This document shows positions 19,877-38,426 of a DNA stretch of 39,636 nt, in pieces. Origin of the DNA: Deltaproteobacteria bacterium (GTDB taxonomy: Bacteria; DRYD01); assembly GCA_028276365.1 (NCBI GenBank), contig JAPYWL010000009.1, positions 1 to 39,636 on the forward strand, in the 5' to 3' direction. Below the pieces are notes generated by a model. That model searched no databases and had not been told where the DNA came from. It saw only the letters and a list, made by a program, of their open reading frames with translations. How positions within the stretch are numbered: the first letter of the stretch is position 1; each line of letters begins with the position of its first letter. The position numbers and the translations under genes are program-made.

Positions 19877-22825
19877 TTAAATTTTAATTGAGATATTTTG
19901 GAAATATTTTTTAGCTTCTTCTTTATCTAATTTTCCATTTTTTACTAAATAAGCTAAGCACTCATTATAATTTTGAATTTCCGCTTTAGTTTCGCCTATT
20001 TTATAAATATATTGTAAATATTCATTATAATTATTTTCTAATATTGTTTTTCTTATTTCATTATCAAAGACTACTACCTCTATTAAAGGAACAAAATTAT
20101 TTAGAGTAGAAGAGTAGATTAACTTTTGAGATAAACCTAAATTTAGGGAATTAATCAGTTTATTTTTATATTCTTCTTTATTTTTTAGTATATCTAATAG
20201 ATTTTTACTAGCTTCAAATAAAGATGGGTAATTTAATTCAAGGATAACGGTTTTTCTAATGCTAACTAAGTTTAAAACTATATTTATTAAATCATAATCT
20301 ATTAAATTAGTAGAAAGCCAAATTATATCAAAATCATCATATAAAATATTAAATAATACTTTATTTAGTAAATTTCTATCATTTTGGTATTCAAATTGTA
20401 TTATAATGCTTTCTTTATCTATAAAGTTATATTCTATTTTTTCTGAGATAACAGCTATTTTTTTAACTTGATTACTGTTAATTTGATTAATAGTAGTAGC
20501 TAAAGTATAGGATTTACCACTACCTAAGTCTCCTGTAGATATAACTAAACCTTTTATATTATTTAATAAAATACTGATATCAATAATAGGTAAAAATACT
20601 TCATTTAAAGAAGGAGCATTTAGTATTTTTCTAATGTTTAATATATACCCATCGACTGTTTTATAGGTATATAATTTATATTTTATATTGTCTTTTACAA
20701 AGAATTTTTCAAATATACCATTATTTTTAAGAATTTCTAATTCTTTAGGATTAAGTAATTCTTTAATGAAATTAAATATATCTCCATTTTTTAGTGACAC
20801 TTTTCCTAATGCAGCAAGATTATTCTTTATTTTTAAAAAAGGCCTGTTATTTGGTTTTATGAATAGGATATTAGAATTTAGATCTTCTTTATTCATAAAA
20901 TCTATAAGTTTATAGATATCATAAGGTAAATCTTGGGTAATTTCTAATTCTTCTTCTATATTTTGCTTGATAAATACTTCATTTAATTTTTCTATATTTT
21001 GATTTAAATTATTAACAATAGAGGTTAAATTATTTTGAATTTCCTCTTTTATTTTTATATTCAAGTCCTGTAGTATATTTTGTAGTTTATTTTCTATATT
21101 ACTTTGGATTAAATTTATTTTATTATTTATTTCTTCTATTTTGTTATCTTGAATAAAGTCTATTAGTTTTTGAGTATGATCTTTATGGGATTCTATTATA
21201 TTAATTAATTCTGTCTTTAAATTTAAATAATTTTCATTTAATTTAGAATCCAATTTATTGGATATTTCGAAGTTATAAAATTCTTTTATTTCATTTATTG
21301 ATTTTAATAAATTTTCATTTAAAGAAGATAATAGATTGTTATTTATTTCAATAGTTTTGTTTAGTAAGGTTTCGTTTAATTGATCTTTTAGATTTATAAA
21401 GATTTCATTTTTATTACTATCAAGAATACTATAAACTTGATCTTTAAAGGAGTTCAATGCAGCTTCGAGTTTTTGAATATAACTTGTTTGAGCTGAATCA
21501 ATTTGAGATTGGACATTCGTTACATACTCTATTATTTTGTTTTCTATTAAATGTTGAGTTTCATTTAATATATTATTTACCTCATTTTTTATATTATTTA
21601 TTTTTTCTTCTAATTCAAATATTCTTTGAGATTGAATAGCATCTATTAATGATTGTACATTGATATATTGATTATTTAGATTTTCGATTTTCTTTTCTAC
21701 TTCAATGATTTTTTGTGTTTGAGCAGCATCTATTTCAGCTTGAACATTAGAAACGTATTCTATGATTTTCTCTTCAACTAATTTAGAAAAAGATTCTTTA
21801 GAAGAATTTAGTTCGTTTAAAAGATTTTCAATTTTCTTTTCTACTTGGATTATTTTTTCAGTTTGAGCAGCATCTATTTCAGATTGAACATTAGAAACGT
21901 ATTCTATGATTTTTTCTTCAATTAATTTAGAAAGAGATTCTTTAGAAGAATTTAGTTCATTTGAAAGATTTTCAATTTTATTATTTAAATCATTTACAAT
22001 ATTATATAAGCTATTTAGATTCTCTTCTATTTCTAAAATTTTATCACTTTGAGTAAGATCTACTTTTACTTGATAATTTTGAAAATAATCTATTATCTTA
22101 TTATCTATTTTATTATCTACCAATGAATTTAGTTCATCTAGCTTACTATTTAATTTTTCAATATTATCTTTATAGGTGTTTATTATTTCAATTAAATCAT
22201 TTATTTTAATTTCATAATCATTTGTAAAATTATCTATTTTAAGGAAGATGTTATTAATTTTTGTTTCATAGTTATCTGTTAAGTTTAAGAGTTTTTCTTT
22301 TAGACTTTCTGTTAATGATTGTAAAGAATTAATTGTTTCATGAGTTATTAATTCTTTTTCTTTTAATTCATTTATAATATTAAGATATTCAGGAATTTTT
22401 TCTATATTTTCTTTTAAGCTTACTATTGGTTCAAGATAAGCCTTATAAGAATTTAACTCCTCTTTAAAAGTTTCTACTTTTGTAATTAAATTATCTAATT
22501 CAGATATTTTAGAAAACAGAATACTTAAATCTTTAGAATAATTATCTATTAAATTATAGATTTCATTTTTTTCTTTATTAAAGTTTTCTAATTTATTTTC
22601 AATTTCACTTAATTTTAGATGTAAATTTTCTGGAATATTTAAATTCATTAAGTTCTCTTTTAGGGAATTAAATATATTTTCTATTTCTTTAAGCTTAGAA
22701 TCTAAGTTATTATATTTTTCATTTAAATCATTAATAGAATTATTTATTTCATTTAAGTTTAAATTAACTTCACTACTTTCAGTTAATTGTTCTATTTTTT
22801 GAATTTTTTTCTCTTTTTTACTCAT
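19877..22825 (-). CDS. Long coiled-coil protein with C-terminal PilT-like (degenerate) ATPase domain
   Basis: ~620 aa of heptad-rich sequence, then a PilT-like domain with Walker A STGDLGSGKSYTLATTINQIN and a PilT-like C-terminus (QNYNECLAYLVKNGKLDKEEAKKYFQN). Confidence 0.75.
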   Translation of the reverse strand: MSKKEKKIQKIEQLTESSEVNLNLNEINNSINDLNEKYNNLDSKLKEIENIFNSLKENLMNLNIPENLHLKLSEIENKLENFNKEKNEIYNLIDNYSKDLSILFSKISELDNLITKVETFKEELNSYKAYLEPIVSLKENIEKIPEYLNIINELKEKELITHETINSLQSLTESLKEKLLNLTDNYETKINNIFLKIDNFTNDYEIKINDLIEIINTYKDNIEKLNSKLDELNSLVDNKIDNKIIDYFQNYQVKVDLTQSDKILEIEENLNSLYNIVNDLNNKIENLSNELNSSKESLSKLIEEKIIEYVSNVQSEIDAAQTEKIIQVEKKIENLLNELNSSKESFSKLVEEKIIEYVSNVQAEIDAAQTQKIIEVEKKIENLNNQYINVQSLIDAIQSQRIFELEEKINNIKNEVNNILNETQHLIENKIIEYVTNVQSQIDSAQTSYIQKLEAALNSFKDQVYSILDSNKNEIFINLKDQLNETLLNKTIEINNNLLSSLNENLLKSINEIKEFYNFEISNKLDSKLNENYLNLKTELINIIESHKDHTQKLIDFIQDNKIEEINNKINLIQSNIENKLQNILQDLNIKIKEEIQNNLTSIVNNLNQNIEKLNEVFIKQNIEEELEITQDLPYDIYKLIDFMNKEDLNSNILFIKPNNRPFLKIKNNLAALGKVSLKNGDIFNFIKELLNPKELEILKNNGIFEKFFVKDNIKYKLYTYKTVDGYILNIRKILNAPSLNEVFLPIIDISILLNNIKGLVISTGDLGSGKSYTLATTINQINSNQVKKIAVISEKIEYNFIDKESIIIQFEYQNDRNLLNKVLFNILYDDFDIIWLSTNLIDYDLINIVLNLVSIRKTVILELNYPSLFEASKNLLDILKNKEEYKNKLINSLNLGLSQKLIYSSTLNNFVPLIEVVVFDNEIRKTILENNYNEYLQYIYKIGETKAEIQNYNECLAYLVKNGKLDKEEAKKYFQNISIKI
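21721..22010 (-). repeat. Internal in-frame repeats of about 144 nt (48 aa) in the coiled-coil gene
   Basis: GAGCAGCATCTATTTCAG...TTGAACATTAGAAACGTATTCTATGATTTT at 21721 recurs at 21865 (144 nt apart). Protein units are EEKIIEYVSNVQ(S/A)EIDAAQT(E/Q)KII(Q/E)VEKKIENL. More diverged copies extend either side. Confidence 0.85.
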
Positions 22826-30313: not shown

Positions 30314-31483
30314 TTAAAATAAATTGGAATTATTGGGCAAAATATGTTCTAAAACAAAATCTGCTGGACCAAATATGTAGTTTTTTTCATGGAGATGCTT
30401 TAATTCTAAACCTAACTCAATTTTAGATGGATTTAAACCAATTCTTGTAGTACCTTTTGCTTTGCTTTCCAATGCTTTTATAACATTATTAACTATATTT
30501 TTTTCTTTTTCACTATAACCTACTATAACAAAAACGAACAGGCCTTTTTGTAAGTATTGATTATTTTGAAGATAATTCTTAAAATTTTTAAATACTCTTC
30601 CTTCATGATTAGGGAATATCCAATCATAGTTTAGATCTTCAACGTCTCCGTGGAATTTCCATAAATATCCACCTTCGTTTATATCTTTAACTTTAACTTT
30701 TATACCATCTTTATTTATTTTTTCTATTTTTTTATTATGTTCATTAAAATAGGCTTTTTCAATTAGGTTATCCCAATTTAAACATATGATTTCCTTAATG
30801 TATTCTGGAAAATTACGAGCTATTAGTTTATGTGAGATTCCTGGTGATGCTTTATCACATATTTCTTTAAATCTTTTTTTTAATTTTTTAGATTTTTCAT
30901 TATTATTTTGATTATCTTGTAAATCATTATAGTCGTTAGCACCTACTTCTCTCAAGATATCATCTAATTGATTTGTTAAAGGGATTCCACTTTCATAAGA
31001 TAATCCTGCTCCTACTAAAAAAACAGATTTATTACTTTCTATTCTATTTTTAATATCGTTGCCTTTTTCTTTTATGTTTGAAATGGTGGCTTCAATATAT
31101 ATTTGTAGCTCTCCTTTTAGTTTATCGATAAGAAATAAAGCTATATCCTCTTCAAAATTATATTTTTTTGATTTAAACTCAGGAGTTAAATCTGTAATCA
31201 TTTTTGGTATTTTTTCTTTTATTATTTCATCTATGATAATTTGTACACAATATGAAAGACCTTTACTATTTTCTACCCAAGTAGCAGTATTTTTTACCCA
31301 AGTAGTAATATTTTTTACCCAATTAGTAATATTTTTTTCACAGTTAGTAATTGAATCATCTTTGCTAGTTATACCCCCATATTTTGATATAATAAATATT
31401 AATGTATGAAGATGCCCTATTTTTTTTAAATTACATTTTAATTCATTGAAAAATTTTTCTTTATCAAAGATATTTTTGAACAT
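30314..31483 (-). CDS. SIR2-like domain protein (putative NAD-binding, possible defence-type)
   Basis: SNKSVFLVGAGLSYESGIPLTNQL, ICLNWDNLIEKAY, YLWKFHGDVEDL, VIVGYSEKEKNIVN: SIR2-like Rossmann motifs with candidate catalytic His. Confidence 0.75.
   Translation of the reverse strand: MFKNIFDKEKFFNELKCNLKKIGHLHTLIFIISKYGGITSKDDSITNCEKNITNWVKNITTWVKNTATWVENSKGLSYCVQIIIDEIIKEKIPKMITDLTPEFKSKKYNFEEDIALFLIDKLKGELQIYIEATISNIKEKGNDIKNRIESNKSVFLVGAGLSYESGIPLTNQLDDILREVGANDYNDLQDNQNNNEKSKKLKKRFKEICDKASPGISHKLIARNFPEYIKEIICLNWDNLIEKAYFNEHNKKIEKINKDGIKVKVKDINEGGYLWKFHGDVEDLNYDWIFPNHEGRVFKNFKNYLQNNQYLQKGLFVFVIVGYSEKEKNIVNNVIKALESKAKGTTRIGLNPSKIELGLELKHLHEKNYIFGPADFVLEHILPNNSNLF
31271..31354 (-). repeat. 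Four 21-nt in-frame tandem repeats in the SIR2-like gene
   Basis: Units TTCTACCCAAGTAGCAGTATT / TTTTACCCAAGTAGTAATATT / TTTTACCCAATTAGTAATATT / TTTTTCACAGTTAGTAATTGA, encoding ITNCEKN-ITNWVKN-ITTWVKN-TATWVEN. Confidence 0.9.
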
Positions 31484-31535: not shown

Positions 31536-32150
31536 TTAGCTTTGGGTTATAACTTTAACTTTTAAGAGAAGAGAAAAAGTTTTTTTATCCAAAATATCTA
31601 TTTTTTCTTTATGTTTTTCGTAATTTAGTTTTTTATCAATAAATTCTTTCCCTATGTAGTTATAATTTTTCCTGTAATTATCCATAATTATTGCTCTCAG
31701 TTTTTCTCTTATTAAAGCTTTTTTATCATCTTGTTTAGGTTTTTTAAGACGGAATTCTTTACTAAGAAGTTCATTGTATTCATATAGTTTTTCTATACAA
31801 TCTATCCCCCTGTTTTTATTCCTTAGTTTTATGTCTTCATCAAGAATAATTAGAATAGAATCTAAAAATTTTTGATTATTAATATGTTCCTTAGTATATT
31901 GTATTATAGATTCAATATCTTCAAAAGTTAAATTTTTTCCTTCTTTTAATTTTGTATCGTATTTTTTTGTAAATTCCTCATCTTCAATGGTTAAAGTTTC
32001 TTTTTTTTCTCCTAATTTTTCATTGATTTCTAATAATTTATCCTCTTGATCAATTTTTGTTGTTTTTTCCTGTGGTATTGTTTTTTCCTGTGATATCGTT
32101 TTTTCCTGTAATATTGTTTTTCCTATTTTTTGAGGTTTTGTTTTAGGCAT
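31536..32150 (-). CDS. Hypothetical protein upstream of and co-directional with the SIR2-like gene
   Basis: 204-aa charged ORF with N-terminal KTILQEKTISQEKTIPQEKT repeats; no family recognised. Confidence 0.65.
   Translation of the reverse strand: MPKTKPQKIGKTILQEKTISQEKTIPQEKTTKIDQEDKLLEINEKLGEKKETLTIEDEEFTKKYDTKLKEGKNLTFEDIESIIQYTKEHINNQKFLDSILIILDEDIKLRNKNRGIDCIEKLYEYNELLSKEFRLKKPKQDDKKALIREKLRAIIMDNYRKNYNYIGKEFIDKKLNYEKHKEKIDILDKKTFSLLLKVKVITQS
32061..32114 (-). repeat. Three 18-nt tandem repeats (plus a degenerate unit) in the 204-aa ORF
   Basis: TGTTTTTTCCTGTGGTAT / TGTTTTTTCCTGTGATAT / CGTTTTTTCCTGTAATAT. Confidence 0.9.
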
Positions 32151-32508: not shown

Positions 32509-33606
32509 ATTTTTATAAAAATTAAATCTTTACCTACTGACTTCATAGTAAAAGAACATATTAATATACCAATTTATAAATCATTAAACGATTTAATAAA
32601 TAAAGATTTAAAAAATCTTTATATAGTTTATAGATTAACAAAAGAAAATATATCTACTTTAAAAATAAGTGAAATATTTTTAAAGAATAATATAAAAGTT
32701 GGTTTTATTGGATTAAAAGATAAGTATTCTTTAGCTTCTCAATATTTTTGTTTTTTTATTCCTAATTTTAGGCAAATTAATAAATTTATTAAAAAAATAG
32801 AAGATATCCTAAAAAGTATTAAATCTGTAAAGCATTTTGAATTTATAGGTTATATTGATAAACCATTAAGAAAACAAGATTTAATATATAATGAATTTAA
32901 GATAATTTTAAGGGATATAGATTCAAAAGAATTAGAAAATTATGTTGAAAAACTAAATCTATTTAAGGATTTTTATTTTTTGAATTTCTATGATGATCAA
33001 CGGTTTCCCATTTATTTAGATTTCTCTATCGATAACTTTATTTCTACTTTAAATAAAATTAAAAATGATTTATTTTCAGAAAATCCTTATTTTAAAAACG
33101 ATTTTTTAAGAGATAACTTAAGTAATGTTATTAGTAATTACTTAAGGGAAATTAAATCTATCTTTAAAATTGATTTTTTAAAAGATAAAGAAAATTTAAC
33201 TAAGATAAAATTGGATAAGAAAGAAATCTTATTTTCATTTGAATTTAATATTTTTTTTAATGTTTTAGTTTTTTTAGCTTTTGATAAAAAGGATTTAAAA
33301 ATATATGTTTCTAAGAATAATCTTATGGTTTTATTTGATTTAACTAATGAAAATAAACAAACTATCCAGGAAATTATTGAGTTAATTTATAAAAATTTTA
33401 ATTCATATAAAAATAGGAAATTATTTATTAAAGTAAATAATTTAGATTTTAATTATTCAAAAGATGAGTTAAGTAGATCTGATAGGTATAAAATAGTATT
33501 AAATTTTAATTTAGAAAGTGGGGGATATGCTACTACTTTTATAAAGCATTTAATTCCTATTAATCCTGTTTCTTCTACTAAGACTAAATTTATTAAAATA
33601 AATTAG
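32509..33606 (+). CDS. truD: tRNA pseudouridine(13) synthase TruD, apparent non-canonical start (ATT 32509 or ATA 32515)
   Basis: Manual translation is open from 32509: IFIKIKSLPTDFIVKEHI...VGFIGLKDKYSLASQYF...FLNFYDDQRF...SGGYATTFIKHLI. The track ORF (32980) starts at an internal Met. Confidence 0.82.
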   Translation: MFIKIKSLPTDFIVKEHINIPIYKSLNDLINKDLKNLYIVYRLTKENISTLKISEIFLKNNIKVGFIGLKDKYSLASQYFCFFIPNFRQINKFIKKIEDILKSIKSVKHFEFIGYIDKPLRKQDLIYNEFKIILRDIDSKELENYVEKLNLFKDFYFLNFYDDQRFPIYLDFSIDNFISTLNKIKNDLFSENPYFKNDFLRDNLSNVISNYLREIKSIFKIDFLKDKENLTKIKLDKKEILFSFEFNIFFNVLVFLAFDKKDLKIYVSKNNLMVLFDLTNENKQTIQEIIELIYKNFNSYKNRKLFIKVNNLDFNYSKDELSRSDRYKIVLNFNLESGGYATTFIKHLIPINPVSSTKTKFIKIN

Positions 33607-33673
33607 GCATATTTTTTTATTTACAAATTAAAAGAGGTATTAGTTTATAAAGGTATAATAGATAATATTAGGT

Positions 33674-33759
33674 GGGGGAGTGGCGGAATTGGCAGACGCG
33701 TTGGACTTAGGATCCAATGGGGATTAAACCCCGTGCGGGTTCAACTCCCGCCTCCCCCA
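33674..33759 (+). tRNA. tRNA-Leu (anticodon TAG)
   Basis: GGGGGAG...CTCCCCC acceptor, TGGCGGAATTGGCAGACGCG D-arm, ACTTAGGA anticodon loop, long variable arm, GCGGGTTCAACTCCCGC T-arm. Confidence 0.95.
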
Positions 33760-33856
33760 TACCTCAATATATCTTACGACTTTTAATTATTATTATTTTT
33801 TTTAAGGGGGGCTTGAGATATAATTTATTAAAACACCAAACAAGGAGGGAGAATAT

Positions 33857-34144
33857 ATGGAAAATGAAAAATTACAAGAACAAATCTCTTTAGAAATATC
33901 TAAGCAAGTAAGTCAAAAAGTATCAGAGTTTGTATCAAAAGTATTAGATAATGTAATGAATAATGAAGAATTTTCAAAAAAAATAGCTTCTATAACTAAT
34001 AAATCACTAGAATTAACAGATAAAGCTGTATCTGAAAAAATGGAACAAGTTTTAAAAATGCAAGCTATAAACGATGATGAGGAATTAGCTGGTCCTTTAT
34101 CTTCTTTATTAAGTGTAACATGTTGTGAGAATCCAGCAGAGTAA
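33857..34144 (+). CDS. Candidate class III lanthipeptide precursor peptide (LanA)
   Basis: 95 aa with strong SD (AAGGAGGGAGAATAT-ATG), Cys-free helical leader and Ser/Thr/Cys-rich C-terminus GPLSSLLSVTCCENPAE containing SxxSxxC(C), immediately upstream of a LanKC-like enzyme. Confidence 0.8.
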   Translation: MENEKLQEQISLEISKQVSQKVSEFVSKVLDNVMNNEEFSKKIASITNKSLELTDKAVSEKMEQVLKMQAINDDEELAGPLSSLLSVTCCENPAE

Positions 34145-34239
34145 TCTTAAATCATAAGTTTTTGTAGGATTTCTTTATATTTTTTAGCCCCCTTGTTTCT
34201 TACTTTAAAATTAAAAATTTTATAAATCTTATTTATAAA

Positions 34240-36999
34240 ATGAAAGATGTTTTAATTTATTATAGAAGAAATTTAGAGGATAATATAATTAAAGGAATTT
34301 TTAAATTTCCAAATAGAGAATTAAATTTATCTAAATGTGATTATTACAGAGCAATAAAAGAAATACTGGATAATGAAGATATTTTAATTTCAGTTGATGA
34401 TACATGGTGTTTTGTTAATTTTAAAGATGTAAATTTACCGATTCAAGGGTGGAAAATACATATTTCTGCTATACCCTCTAATTCTATTGAGATTTTAGAA
34501 AAAACCGCAAAAATTTTAGTAAATAATAAATTACCATTTAAATTTCTAAAAACAATTGATATATTTTTTAAACAAAATTCTAAAAATTCAAATAGAGCAT
34601 CTTCTGGTAAATTTATAACAATTTATCCTCCTAATGAACAAATTTTTAAAGAAATTATAAACAAACTATATTTAGAATTAAAAGATTATGAGGGACCATA
34701 TATATTATCAGATAAAAGATTTAAAGATTGTAAAGTAATTTACTATAGATATGGTGGATTTTTATCTATTACCAAATCTGATTATTTAGGACAAAAAAAA
34801 TATTATATAAAAACTCCAAATAATTCACTATATGAAGATAAAAGAAAACCTTATTATTATTTACCTTATTTTGTTAATGATATCTTTGATAATAAAAGAT
34901 ATGACTTAAAGAAAAATTTAAAACAGGAGAAAAACAATATTATTTTAAATGATAGGTATCTTATAAAGAAAGCATTAAGCTATAAGAACACAGGTGGAAT
35001 TTATTTAGCACAGGATTTAATTTCAAATCAAAAAGTTATAATAAAAGAGGCAAGACCTTATACTAACTATAGAAGTTTTGATTTTGATACTGTTTATAAT
35101 CTATATTATGAATATTCAATTTTACTTAAATTAAATGATATACCCCAGGTTATAAAAGTAAAAGATATTTTTAATGTATGGGAGCACCACTTTTTGGTTT
35201 TGGAATATTTTAAATCTAAGAATTTACATAAAATAATCTCAGAAAACTTACCCTATTACTTTAAAACATTATCAAAATTCAATAATTTAATTTATAATAT
35301 CTTTAGTGATTTACTATGTGGATTAAAGGAGATACATAAAAAGGGAGTAATACATGGGGATTTATCTGTTAATAATATTATAGTTAATAAAAAAGGGGAG
35401 GTTAGAATAATAGATTTTGAAGGTGCTTTTTTAGAGTGGTATTCAAAAAAATTAATTCCTTTTTATACACCAGGCTTTGTTTTTGATATCAATAAAAAAA
35501 CCCGAGATTTTTTTGATGATTTATATTCTTTTTGCGTTACTCTATTTTATTCACTTTATGGACCTATTAATGAAATAGTATATCTTAAACCTAATTATAT
35601 TCATACTTTAATTTATGATTTAGTTAAATATTATAAATATCCACTTAAGGTAGCTGATATTTTTAGTTACGTTATTGACAAATGTACAATTTATCAAAAT
35701 ACTAATAAGCAAATTGATAATAAAATTGTCAATAAAATTGATAATAAAAATATAGATGAGATTTATAATTCAATAGAAGAAATGTTATTATTAATTAAGA
35801 ACAGTGAATTTAAAGAGTATTTGGTTTTTAATAAAGATGAACAGAGAAATATAAAAACTAAGGAATTAAAAGAAATAAAACAAAAATTACTTGAATTTAT
35901 AGAAAAAGTTAAGTTTTTGAATAATGAAATTCCATTTCCTTTAAGTAATTTTGCTTACAAAACTAATCCTTTATCTTTTGGTTATGGAATATCAGGAATT
36001 TTAAAAATATTGAAAATAATTTTAAAAGATGATTTTGAATATATGTATTCAGATGTAGTTGATTATTTTTATAAGAGTATAAAAAAGATAGATATAACAA
36101 ATATTGATGATTATTCACCTAATTTTATGACAGGTTTAGCTGGAGTTGCTTTAACTGCTTATGATTTATCTATTACTGATCAAGCTTTTAGGATATTAAG
36201 TTTAGTTAATAAACACAGATTACTTAAAAATAAAAATTTTTCTTTTTTTTATGGATTGCCCGGTATTGCTTATGTTAATTTATATTTTTATGAAAAAACT
36301 AAAGAAAATAAGTACCTTGATTTTGCTTTAATTTTAATTAATAAGATTCTAAAGAATAAAAAGGAATTGAATGAGAAAATTTATTTTAGTAATTATGTAG
36401 GTTTAGCTAATGGGCAAGCAGGAATAGCTTTATTATTCCTATATTTTTATAAATTAACTAATAATAATTATTTTTTAGAATTGGCTATTAAAACTATTTT
36501 ATTTGATTTGTCTTTTGAAATATCTACAAATAGTGGAAAAAAAGGGTTTCCTTATAGTACTAAAAATAAATTTGTTTCTCCTTATTTAGAATATGGGATT
36601 GCTGGGATTGCTAAGGTACTTTATGAAATTAATAATTACTTACATTTTGATCAAAATTATAAGTTATATTTAAATGATTTTTCTGATAGATTAAAGGAAT
36701 ATGAAAGTTCAGTTTTATTTTTTAATATAAGTTCTCCTACTTACTTTGTGGGCTTAGCTGGAATATTAGATTTTCTTTGTGATATTAAAAGTCATTATTG
36801 TACTTCTATGTTTTCTTTGTTAAATAATTTTATAGTATATACTAAATATGGTTTATCTTTTCCATCTGAAATGCTAAGATATATTAGTTTGGGTTTTGGA
36901 GATGGCATTAGTGGTATTTTGTACGTTATTTATAAATATCTTATTTTTCAAGAATCTGAAAATAATCATTTTAGTGACATTTTTTTGTTTAAAATATAA
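34240..36999 (+). CDS. Class III lanthionine synthetase (LanKC: lyase-kinase-cyclase)
   Basis: Lyase-type region (GWKIHISAIPSN...PFKFLK...SSGKFITIYP...GPYILSDKRF...YYRYGGF), kinase (VIIKEARPYTNY, HGDLSVNNIIVN, RIIDFEGAF) and LanC-like GxxG repeats (FYGLPGIAYV, GLANGQAGIALLF, YGIAGIAKVL, GDGISGILYV) without recognisable Zn ligands. Confidence 0.9.
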   Translation: MKDVLIYYRRNLEDNIIKGIFKFPNRELNLSKCDYYRAIKEILDNEDILISVDDTWCFVNFKDVNLPIQGWKIHISAIPSNSIEILEKTAKILVNNKLPFKFLKTIDIFFKQNSKNSNRASSGKFITIYPPNEQIFKEIINKLYLELKDYEGPYILSDKRFKDCKVIYYRYGGFLSITKSDYLGQKKYYIKTPNNSLYEDKRKPYYYLPYFVNDIFDNKRYDLKKNLKQEKNNIILNDRYLIKKALSYKNTGGIYLAQDLISNQKVIIKEARPYTNYRSFDFDTVYNLYYEYSILLKLNDIPQVIKVKDIFNVWEHHFLVLEYFKSKNLHKIISENLPYYFKTLSKFNNLIYNIFSDLLCGLKEIHKKGVIHGDLSVNNIIVNKKGEVRIIDFEGAFLEWYSKKLIPFYTPGFVFDINKKTRDFFDDLYSFCVTLFYSLYGPINEIVYLKPNYIHTLIYDLVKYYKYPLKVADIFSYVIDKCTIYQNTNKQIDNKIVNKIDNKNIDEIYNSIEEMLLLIKNSEFKEYLVFNKDEQRNIKTKELKEIKQKLLEFIEKVKFLNNEIPFPLSNFAYKTNPLSFGYGISGILKILKIILKDDFEYMYSDVVDYFYKSIKKIDITNIDDYSPNFMTGLAGVALTAYDLSITDQAFRILSLVNKHRLLKNKNFSFFYGLPGIAYVNLYFYEKTKENKYLDFALILINKILKNKKELNEKIYFSNYVGLANGQAGIALLFLYFYKLTNNNYFLELAIKTILFDLSFEISTNSGKKGFPYSTKNKFVSPYLEYGIAGIAKVLYEINNYLHFDQNYKLYLNDFSDRLKEYESSVLFFNISSPTYFVGLAGILDFLCDIKSHYCTSMFSLLNNFIVYTKYGLSFPSEMLRYISLGFGDGISGILYVIYKYLIFQESENNHFSDIFLFKI

Positions 37000-37130
37000 T
37001 TTACAATAAATGATTTATTCCTTATATACTAATATTTAGGATACTTTTTTAAGGGAGGTAAAAAATTAAAAATAAAGAAAAAAATAAAGAAAAGAATTAG
37101 AATATTTTATTTGGAAAGAAAATAAAAAAT

Positions 37131-38426
37131 ATGGTGTATAAAAAAGATTTATCAGATAGTTTAGATTTTTATAAGAATGTAAAATTAAAGGCAAGATATT
37201 TAGATGTAAAGCCTATTAATTTAAATGGCCAAAATCTATTTTTAGTAAGTGATCCCTATAAGATATCAAATGATTTTATTGTTAGTCCTATAGTAGTTTT
37301 AGTTTTATCATTACTAAATGGTAATAATTCTTTAAGTGATATAAAATCTACTATTTTTAGATTAACGGGAATAATTCCTACTGATGATGAACTTTATAAT
37401 TTAATAAAGTTTTTTGAAGATAATTTATTTTTACTAGATGATAAATTTAATAAAGCCTATAAAAATGAAATTGAAAACTTAAGAAAAAAGGGATTTTTAA
37501 GAGGTAGTTTAATGGGGATAAGTTATCCGGAAGACCCTGCTAAAGCTGAAGAATTTTTATTTAATAATAATATTGATAATAATTTAAATAGTAATAATTT
37601 AAATATTGATGAAATTTCAAATCAAATAATAGCTTTAATTATACCTCATATGGATTTAAAGGTAGCAAGGGAAACTTATTTTAGAGCTTATAAATTGTTA
37701 TTAAATAATTTAGTAAAAAATTCAAGAGATATAGAAAATGTTTTTATTTTGGGGGTTAGTCATTATTACCATAAAAACCCTATTTCCGTATTTCCTTTAG
37801 ATTTCGAAACTCCTTTTGGAATATTAAAAACTAATAAAGAATTAATAGAAAAAATAGATGATAACTTAAGAAAAATTCTTGCTAGTCAATATTTTGATTT
37901 ATTTGAGAATATACTAATTTATAAATCTGAACATTCTATAGAAGCTCAAATTCCATATATCAAGTTATTAGAAACTAAATTATATGAAAATAAAGTAAAT
38001 AAAATAAATAAATACCTTAAAGTGATTCCTATGATTATTTCTTATGGTAATATTGAACTATTTGATAAAATTATAGATTCTTTTCTAAGTGAAATTGATA
38101 TTAATAGGACTATTTTTATAAGTAGTATAGATTTAAGTCATGTAGGTAAAAAATTTGGGGATAATAACTTTTTTGATCCTGAAAAATTTGATCAAAAATA
38201 TATTGAATTGCTTTCAAATTTAGATATAAATAATTTATTTTATTTTGATAATATATCAAGGATAGATGGGATTTTTACAAACACTTTCTTAGTTTCTGTT
38301 TTAAAAAAGATATCAAAATTAAATAATTTTGAAATTTCATCAAAATTAATTGATTATAAAAAATATGAGGAAAAATTAACTGATTCTATAGTTTCCTATT
38401 GTTCTATTGTTTATTTTAAAAAATAG
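37131..38426 (+). CDS. MEMO1-family protein (AmmeMemoRadiSam system protein B-like) with extra N-terminal domain
   Basis: IIPHMDLKVARETYFRAYKLL, VFILGVSHYYHKN, SEHSIEAQIPYIKLL, FISSIDLSHVGKKFG. The ~110-aa N-terminus FIVSPIVVLVLSLLNGNNSLSDIKSTIF... is winged-helix-like. Confidence 0.85.
   Translation: MVYKKDLSDSLDFYKNVKLKARYLDVKPINLNGQNLFLVSDPYKISNDFIVSPIVVLVLSLLNGNNSLSDIKSTIFRLTGIIPTDDELYNLIKFFEDNLFLLDDKFNKAYKNEIENLRKKGFLRGSLMGISYPEDPAKAEEFLFNNNIDNNLNSNNLNIDEISNQIIALIIPHMDLKVARETYFRAYKLLLNNLVKNSRDIENVFILGVSHYYHKNPISVFPLDFETPFGILKTNKELIEKIDDNLRKILASQYFDLFENILIYKSEHSIEAQIPYIKLLETKLYENKVNKINKYLKVIPMIISYGNIELFDKIIDSFLSEIDINRTIFISSIDLSHVGKKFGDNNFFDPEKFDQKYIELLSNLDINNLFYFDNISRIDGIFTNTFLVSVLKKISKLNNFEISSKLIDYKKYEEKLTDSIVSYCSIVYFKK

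Follow-up and report, generated by a model that had tools for sequence, protein, structure and literature searches.

The solved structures closest in sequence to the synthetase described here are those of ThurKC, from the ThurKC/ThurA system of Bacillus thuringiensis (PDB 8sam/8sao/8sap), and of further class III synthetases (best E 6e-76). In ThurKC, S726-F770-D771 stand in place of the zinc ligands of NisC, and the K108A variant made no dehydrations (PMC10604976). The nearest LanKC sequences belong to two WOR-3 (Caldifarciminota) loci, L030 and L031, which are 37% identical to ours, share a clade with it at support of 100/100 (with a long branch), and have their precursor gene upstream, as here. 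Their precursors (MKKVLRLQ...) have no extension, their cores are unlike the one reported below, and their GC content is 0.52-0.56, against 0.22 here. The statement in the preliminary description of this DNA that class III systems are best known from actinobacteria and some Firmicutes was too narrow, since the LanKC relatives span seven other groups (WOR-3, Bipolaricaulota, Chloroflexota, Pseudomonadota, Bacteroidota, Acidobacteriota, and Deinococcota).

We analysed a window of 39,636 bases, the entire contig C6 of the draft genome of an uncultured bacterium (1.59 Mb, 124 contigs, 87% complete), an assembly that yielded no 16S gene. Positions 33857-36999 very probably form a class III lanthipeptide locus of two genes, lanA and lanKC, and both ORFs lie exactly where they had been placed before (Table 1). 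The precursor stop and lanKC are separated by 95 nt, and an SD of its own is not obvious for lanKC.

Table 1. Features of the lanA-lanKC locus, in window coordinates
Feature	Position	Strand	Basis or detail
Shine-Dalgarno (SD) sequence AAGGAGGG	33842..33849	+	precedes precursor start; direct reading
lanA, 95-aa precursor peptide	33857..34144	+	SD, ORF, lanthi_III_b match
N-terminal extension predicted as a helical hairpin (residues 1-61)	33857..34039	+	AlphaFold; no family found
Leader of class III type; VLKMQ motif at residues 65-69	34040..34093	+	
Predicted core, about residues 80-95, PLSSLLSVTCCENPAE; SLLSVTC = SxxSxxC	34094..34141	+	inference; cleavage site approximate
lanKC, class III lanthionine synthetase, 919 aa	34240..36999	+	lyase ~51-214, kinase ~236-440, cyclase ~570-905

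LanKC is a divergent class III synthetase

The ordered lyase, kinase, and cyclase regions proposed for the 919-aa protein are all matched in Pfam above the curated cut-offs: the RamC_N lyase (PF25816) at residues 51-214 (177 bits, cut-off 27, E 4e-52), the kinase (PF00069) at residues 251-395 (65 bits), and the LANC_like domain (PF05147) at residues 652-900 (73 bits). The full-length class III model of NCBIfam, NF038151, scores 513 bits over residues 47-897 (E 1.4e-153), below a curated cut-off of 575 bits that is a naming threshold and not a defining biochemical feature. An AlphaFold model built from 31 sequences (pLDDT 86, pTM 0.84) has full-length LanKC-type synthetases as its top 18 fold matches, including ThurKC, SalKC, PneKC, and CuvL (E 1e-43 to 2e-20). 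These comparisons cover about 900 columns, with TM-scores of 0.55-0.74 and an rmsd of 6-10, in line with what a difference in domain placement would produce. The HMM, structure, and residue comparisons thus agree on class III, as had been proposed, and the protein is a divergent new member of a known enzyme type.

ThurKC and the present LanKC are 26% identical, and they have in common the domain order, the lyase and kinase residues, the kinase DFE, the leader groove, and the lack of zinc ligands. Specifically, lyase residues K72, H74, K101, R119, K124, and R170 are identical in 42/42 LanKCs and K115 in 41/42, and direct alignment equates K115/K124 with K108/K117 of ThurKC. In the kinase, the catalytic K269, E291, D374, N379, and D392 are all present together with the LanKC-type DFE (E394); E291, D374, N379, D392, and E394 are invariant among the 42 LanKCs, and K269/E291 correspond to the ThurKC pair K257/E279. 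Groove residues Y148, W302, and F306 of ThurKC are represented by Y154, W314, and F318. (An offset of three separates the PDB chain index from the published ThurKC numbering; it fits K108, K117, Y148, K257, E279, W302, F306, and S726.) The two enzymes differ in that D771 of ThurKC, its proposed general base, is V837 here, and its R275 is N287.

The positions of the zinc ligands are occupied by E784, F836, and V837, the counterparts of ThurKC S726-F770-D771, so that the cyclase has none of the ligand residues. E784 was placed by direct alignment with ThurKC; F836-V837 were placed by inference, through the GLFxG column that does not vary across the family alignment. The earlier claim that the cyclase has no zinc ligands therefore stands, while its choice of GDGISG as the equivalent of the CHG motif does not: GDGISG (887-893) is the final LanC repeat, and the CHG equivalent is F836-V837-G838. 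Neither of two outcomes that would have contradicted the earlier description, a lack of any lyase match or the presence of intact zinc ligands, was seen.

The precursor and its N-terminal extension

The gene upstream of lanKC had been described as encoding a peptide with a near-ideal SD and a Ser/Thr/Cys-rich C-terminal core, and we found both, together with a leader motif. The sequence AAGGAGGGAGAATATATG at this ORF is the sole plus-strand GGAGG with a well-spaced ATG in the window besides one at 2968, which sits within a longer gene. The ORF is also the only SD-preceded one in the window with motif and core, and no second copy was found in the genome. By themselves, residues 62-95 (MEQVLKMQ...LSSLLSVTCC) look like an ordinary class III precursor in full, the leader motif (VLKMQ) being of the VLxLQ type and the core (SLLSVTC) of the form SxxSxxC; the preliminary description had overlooked that the peptide is such a precursor behind a 61-residue extension.

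The lanthi_III_b model NF038159 matches residues 63-89 with 20.0 bits (cut-off 30, E 5e-4), a score within the 13-25 bits that precursors at other LanKC genes reach with non-cognate class III models. Since LanKC and precursor both fall below the cut-offs of their models, neither is named automatically. When residues 62-95 are aligned with the L092 precursor, from a MAG labelled Acetofilamentum, the score beats 2000/2000 shuffles, with LSSLLS and VLxxQ in common; the class III cores are very similar (LSSLLSIGCVCVNE in L092 vs LSSLLSVTCCENPAE here), as are the motifs (VLALQ vs VLKMQ). For the precursors of L031, L030, L041, L028, and L036, just 0-5 of 2000 shuffles score as well, and alignments with several other precursors were indistinguishable from shuffles. 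The L092 precursor has 33 aa, and an ABC-exporter-like gene lies downstream; the LanKC there is read as two overlapping frames. In both L092 (5464-8146) and L081 (5776-8568, Caldilineaceae), the lyase-kinase part and the cyclase fall in separate ORFs, which may be real splits or sequencing errors.

The leader segment is preceded by 61 additional coded residues, and the VLKMQ motif by 64. Around 87 LanKC genes, we surveyed the ORFs that have an SD, a leader motif, and a core, and 72 of these genes had candidates (130 in total); with starts chosen by SD strength and a bias to recognisable motifs, the survey is a guide and no census. The motif follows after 2-4 residues in 114/130, after 16 or fewer in all but two, and after 30 at most. 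A motif within the first few residues is thus usual, not strictly defining, and it is not what this precursor has. The leader of ThurA, too, lacks an N-terminal domain. The two longest comparison extensions are those of L054 (23 residues, from a doubtful GTG start) and L081. The latter, the longest other ATG-initiated extension, places 30 residues ahead of VLNMQ; it is half as long as this one, has no evident similarity to it, and has an internal Met just ahead of the motif. Altogether, a 61-residue, predicted helical domain ahead of the leader is the unusual part of this locus, unseen in about 130 related peptides. Gammaproteobacterial class III precursors at L043:4717-5707 and L059:5557-5754, with the motif after 10-16 residues, have leaders that end in SGG/GGR-type sequence and cores with duplicated WST...C repeats.

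A single-sequence AlphaFold model of the precursor predicts helices at residues 2-34 and 37-72, mostly with pLDDT above 90, and a poorly ordered core. A search of the PDB returned no fold match for this model, and no family in Pfam or NCBIfam matched residues 1-61 above cut-off; TAFH, PhaR, and DUF445 matches below the cut-offs were taken as helical composition. Precursor homologues were not found in plasmids, and within the phylum there were weak matches at best (E 0.02 or worse). Since the locus is present in one species only, comparative support for the extension is lacking.

Favoured and alternative readings of the locus and its product

A class IV (LanL) or other zinc-dependent system would share the domain order, and the class IV model of NCBIfam does score 333 bits. 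We consider this reading highly improbable given the residues at the zinc-ligand positions (E, F, and V), a class III score that is 180 bits better, fold matches that are class III, and a precursor with a class III LxLQ-type motif. It is also very unlikely that the extension is an artefact and that translation starts at the internal ATG at 34040 to give an ordinary 34-aa peptide. The 34-aa piece appears complete by itself, and the motif usually sits just behind the start in class III precursors; however, the ATG at 34040 has no SD (ATAAAGCTGTATCTGAAAAA), whereas a strong one lies at 33842. The 61 codons would stay open by chance with a probability of 0.0013 at this composition, the other frames of the stretch are stop-rich, G occupies codon positions 1/2/3 at 31/2/7%, as in coding sequence, and the extension is predicted as a confident helical fold. 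The SD, its lack at the internal ATG, the openness, and the codon-position bias therefore lead us to regard residues 1-61 as coded.

With residues 1-61 coded, the most likely role of the hairpin is that of an added domain for handling, which would be stabilising, self-associating, or surface- or partner-binding, and which would leave with the leader. It would not be required for recognition, since the groove-binding motif is as far from the core as is usual. A bolder and unlikely reading takes the hairpin as a functional domain so far without parallel in class III precursors, such as a carrier or oligomerisation module, which would replace the missing dedicated exporter or anchor the modified peptide to a cell structure; the mature product would then be no free small peptide but a helical protein whose tail is closed by lanthionine. 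About as doubtful is a decaying or silent locus, in which the enzyme is intact, export and leader removal are missing, and the cell releases no product. The locus encodes neither a leader protease nor a dedicated exporter, whereas an ABC exporter adjoins at L030. The sole ABC_membrane gene detected, probably one gene split between two contig ends (C96 and C8) with an identical 123-base overlap, adjoins lptB-like and plsY-like genes and has a counterpart in 7/7 genomes of the phylum. Against decay, the tested catalytic residues are all intact and the 919-codon frame is open; the genome is 87% complete, and a dedicated exporter may lie in the missing 13%. Class III leader proteases can be encoded outside the cluster, as is the M16B pair ThurP3/P4 (PMC10604976), and three M16 peptidase matches in this genome are possible candidates by analogy.

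In the favoured reading as a two-gene class III system, the ribosome would make the 95-aa precursor, and the kinase would phosphorylate Ser82, Ser83, Ser86, and Thr88 of the core. The lyase would then remove phosphate to leave dehydroalanine or dehydrobutyrine, and the zinc-free cyclase would join Cys89 and/or Cys90 to form lanthionine or labionin in SLLSVTC. What is new is an unusual precursor architecture with a known enzyme type, the product chemistry being predicted from sequence. The precursor is a clean example of a leader motif that is internal and not N-terminal. Provided that cells do make the extension, a LanKC can accept a folded domain ahead of the leader helix, a point directly relevant to the fusion of carriers with class III substrates, and genome mining that assumes short precursors misses such genes.

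Neighbouring genes, distribution, and origin

Upstream of the locus lie tRNA-Leu (33673-33760) and, before it, a TruD-like gene that ends at 33606; downstream lies a MEMO gene (37131-38426), so that lanA-lanKC lies directly 5' of a conserved MEMO/PilM-like gene pair. The start of the gene after MEMO resembles that of the ORF in the same place in G001, a genome of the same genus, which has the MEMO and following genes, another upstream neighbour, and no LanKC. RamC_N was found in 0/6 other genomes of the phylum (71-90% complete), an absence that is weak evidence in any single genome and fair evidence in all six. The simplest reading is that the locus was gained by transfer into this species; loss from its relatives is an alternative that the distribution would also allow. 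The GC contents of the window (22.4%), lanKC (21.4%), precursor (26.7%), and measured neighbours (18-21%) give no clear compositional sign of recent foreign origin. The locus brings a barely sampled lineage of about 22% GC into the range of class III lanthipeptide biosynthesis.

A phage origin was rejected, since phages had kinase-domain matches only and no LanKC, as was a plasmid origin, because no plasmid LanKC exceeds about 30% identity across most of the length. A defence-system reading of LanKC was likewise set aside because its PADLOC matches are to the kinase domain. Among the papers searched, we found nothing relevant on long precursors of class III systems or on lanthipeptides from WOR-3.

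The MEMO gene was rejected as a member of the cluster, since G001, G002, G003, and G005 have MEMO with its N-terminal extension and no LanKC, and we found no support for that extension as a peptide recognition element. In this MEMO family (AmmeMemoRadiSam B; the window gene, L114, L115, and L117), the extension has about 125 residues, is conserved family-wide, and has no NCBIfam or PDB match, and the same gene, of 390-425 aa, comes next. Between lanKC and MEMO, an AGGGAGG (37052-37058) has no standard start codon close behind it.

Further observations concern other genes of the window. The TruD-like frame (32509-33606) is open from 32509, with the first ATG, GTG, or TTG not before 32980; homology to L121 places the start near 32509-32520, which suggests an ATT or ATA start. 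A SIR2-like protein with an internal TWVKN-type repeat (30314-31483, minus strand) adjoins a family-less gene (31536-32150, minus strand), and weak PADLOC matches to SIR2/Argonaute-associated systems make the two a possible defence pair. A 982-aa protein (19877-22825, minus strand) fuses about 650 coiled-coil-like residues to a PilT-like ATPase that is divergent and scores below cut-off (112 bits).
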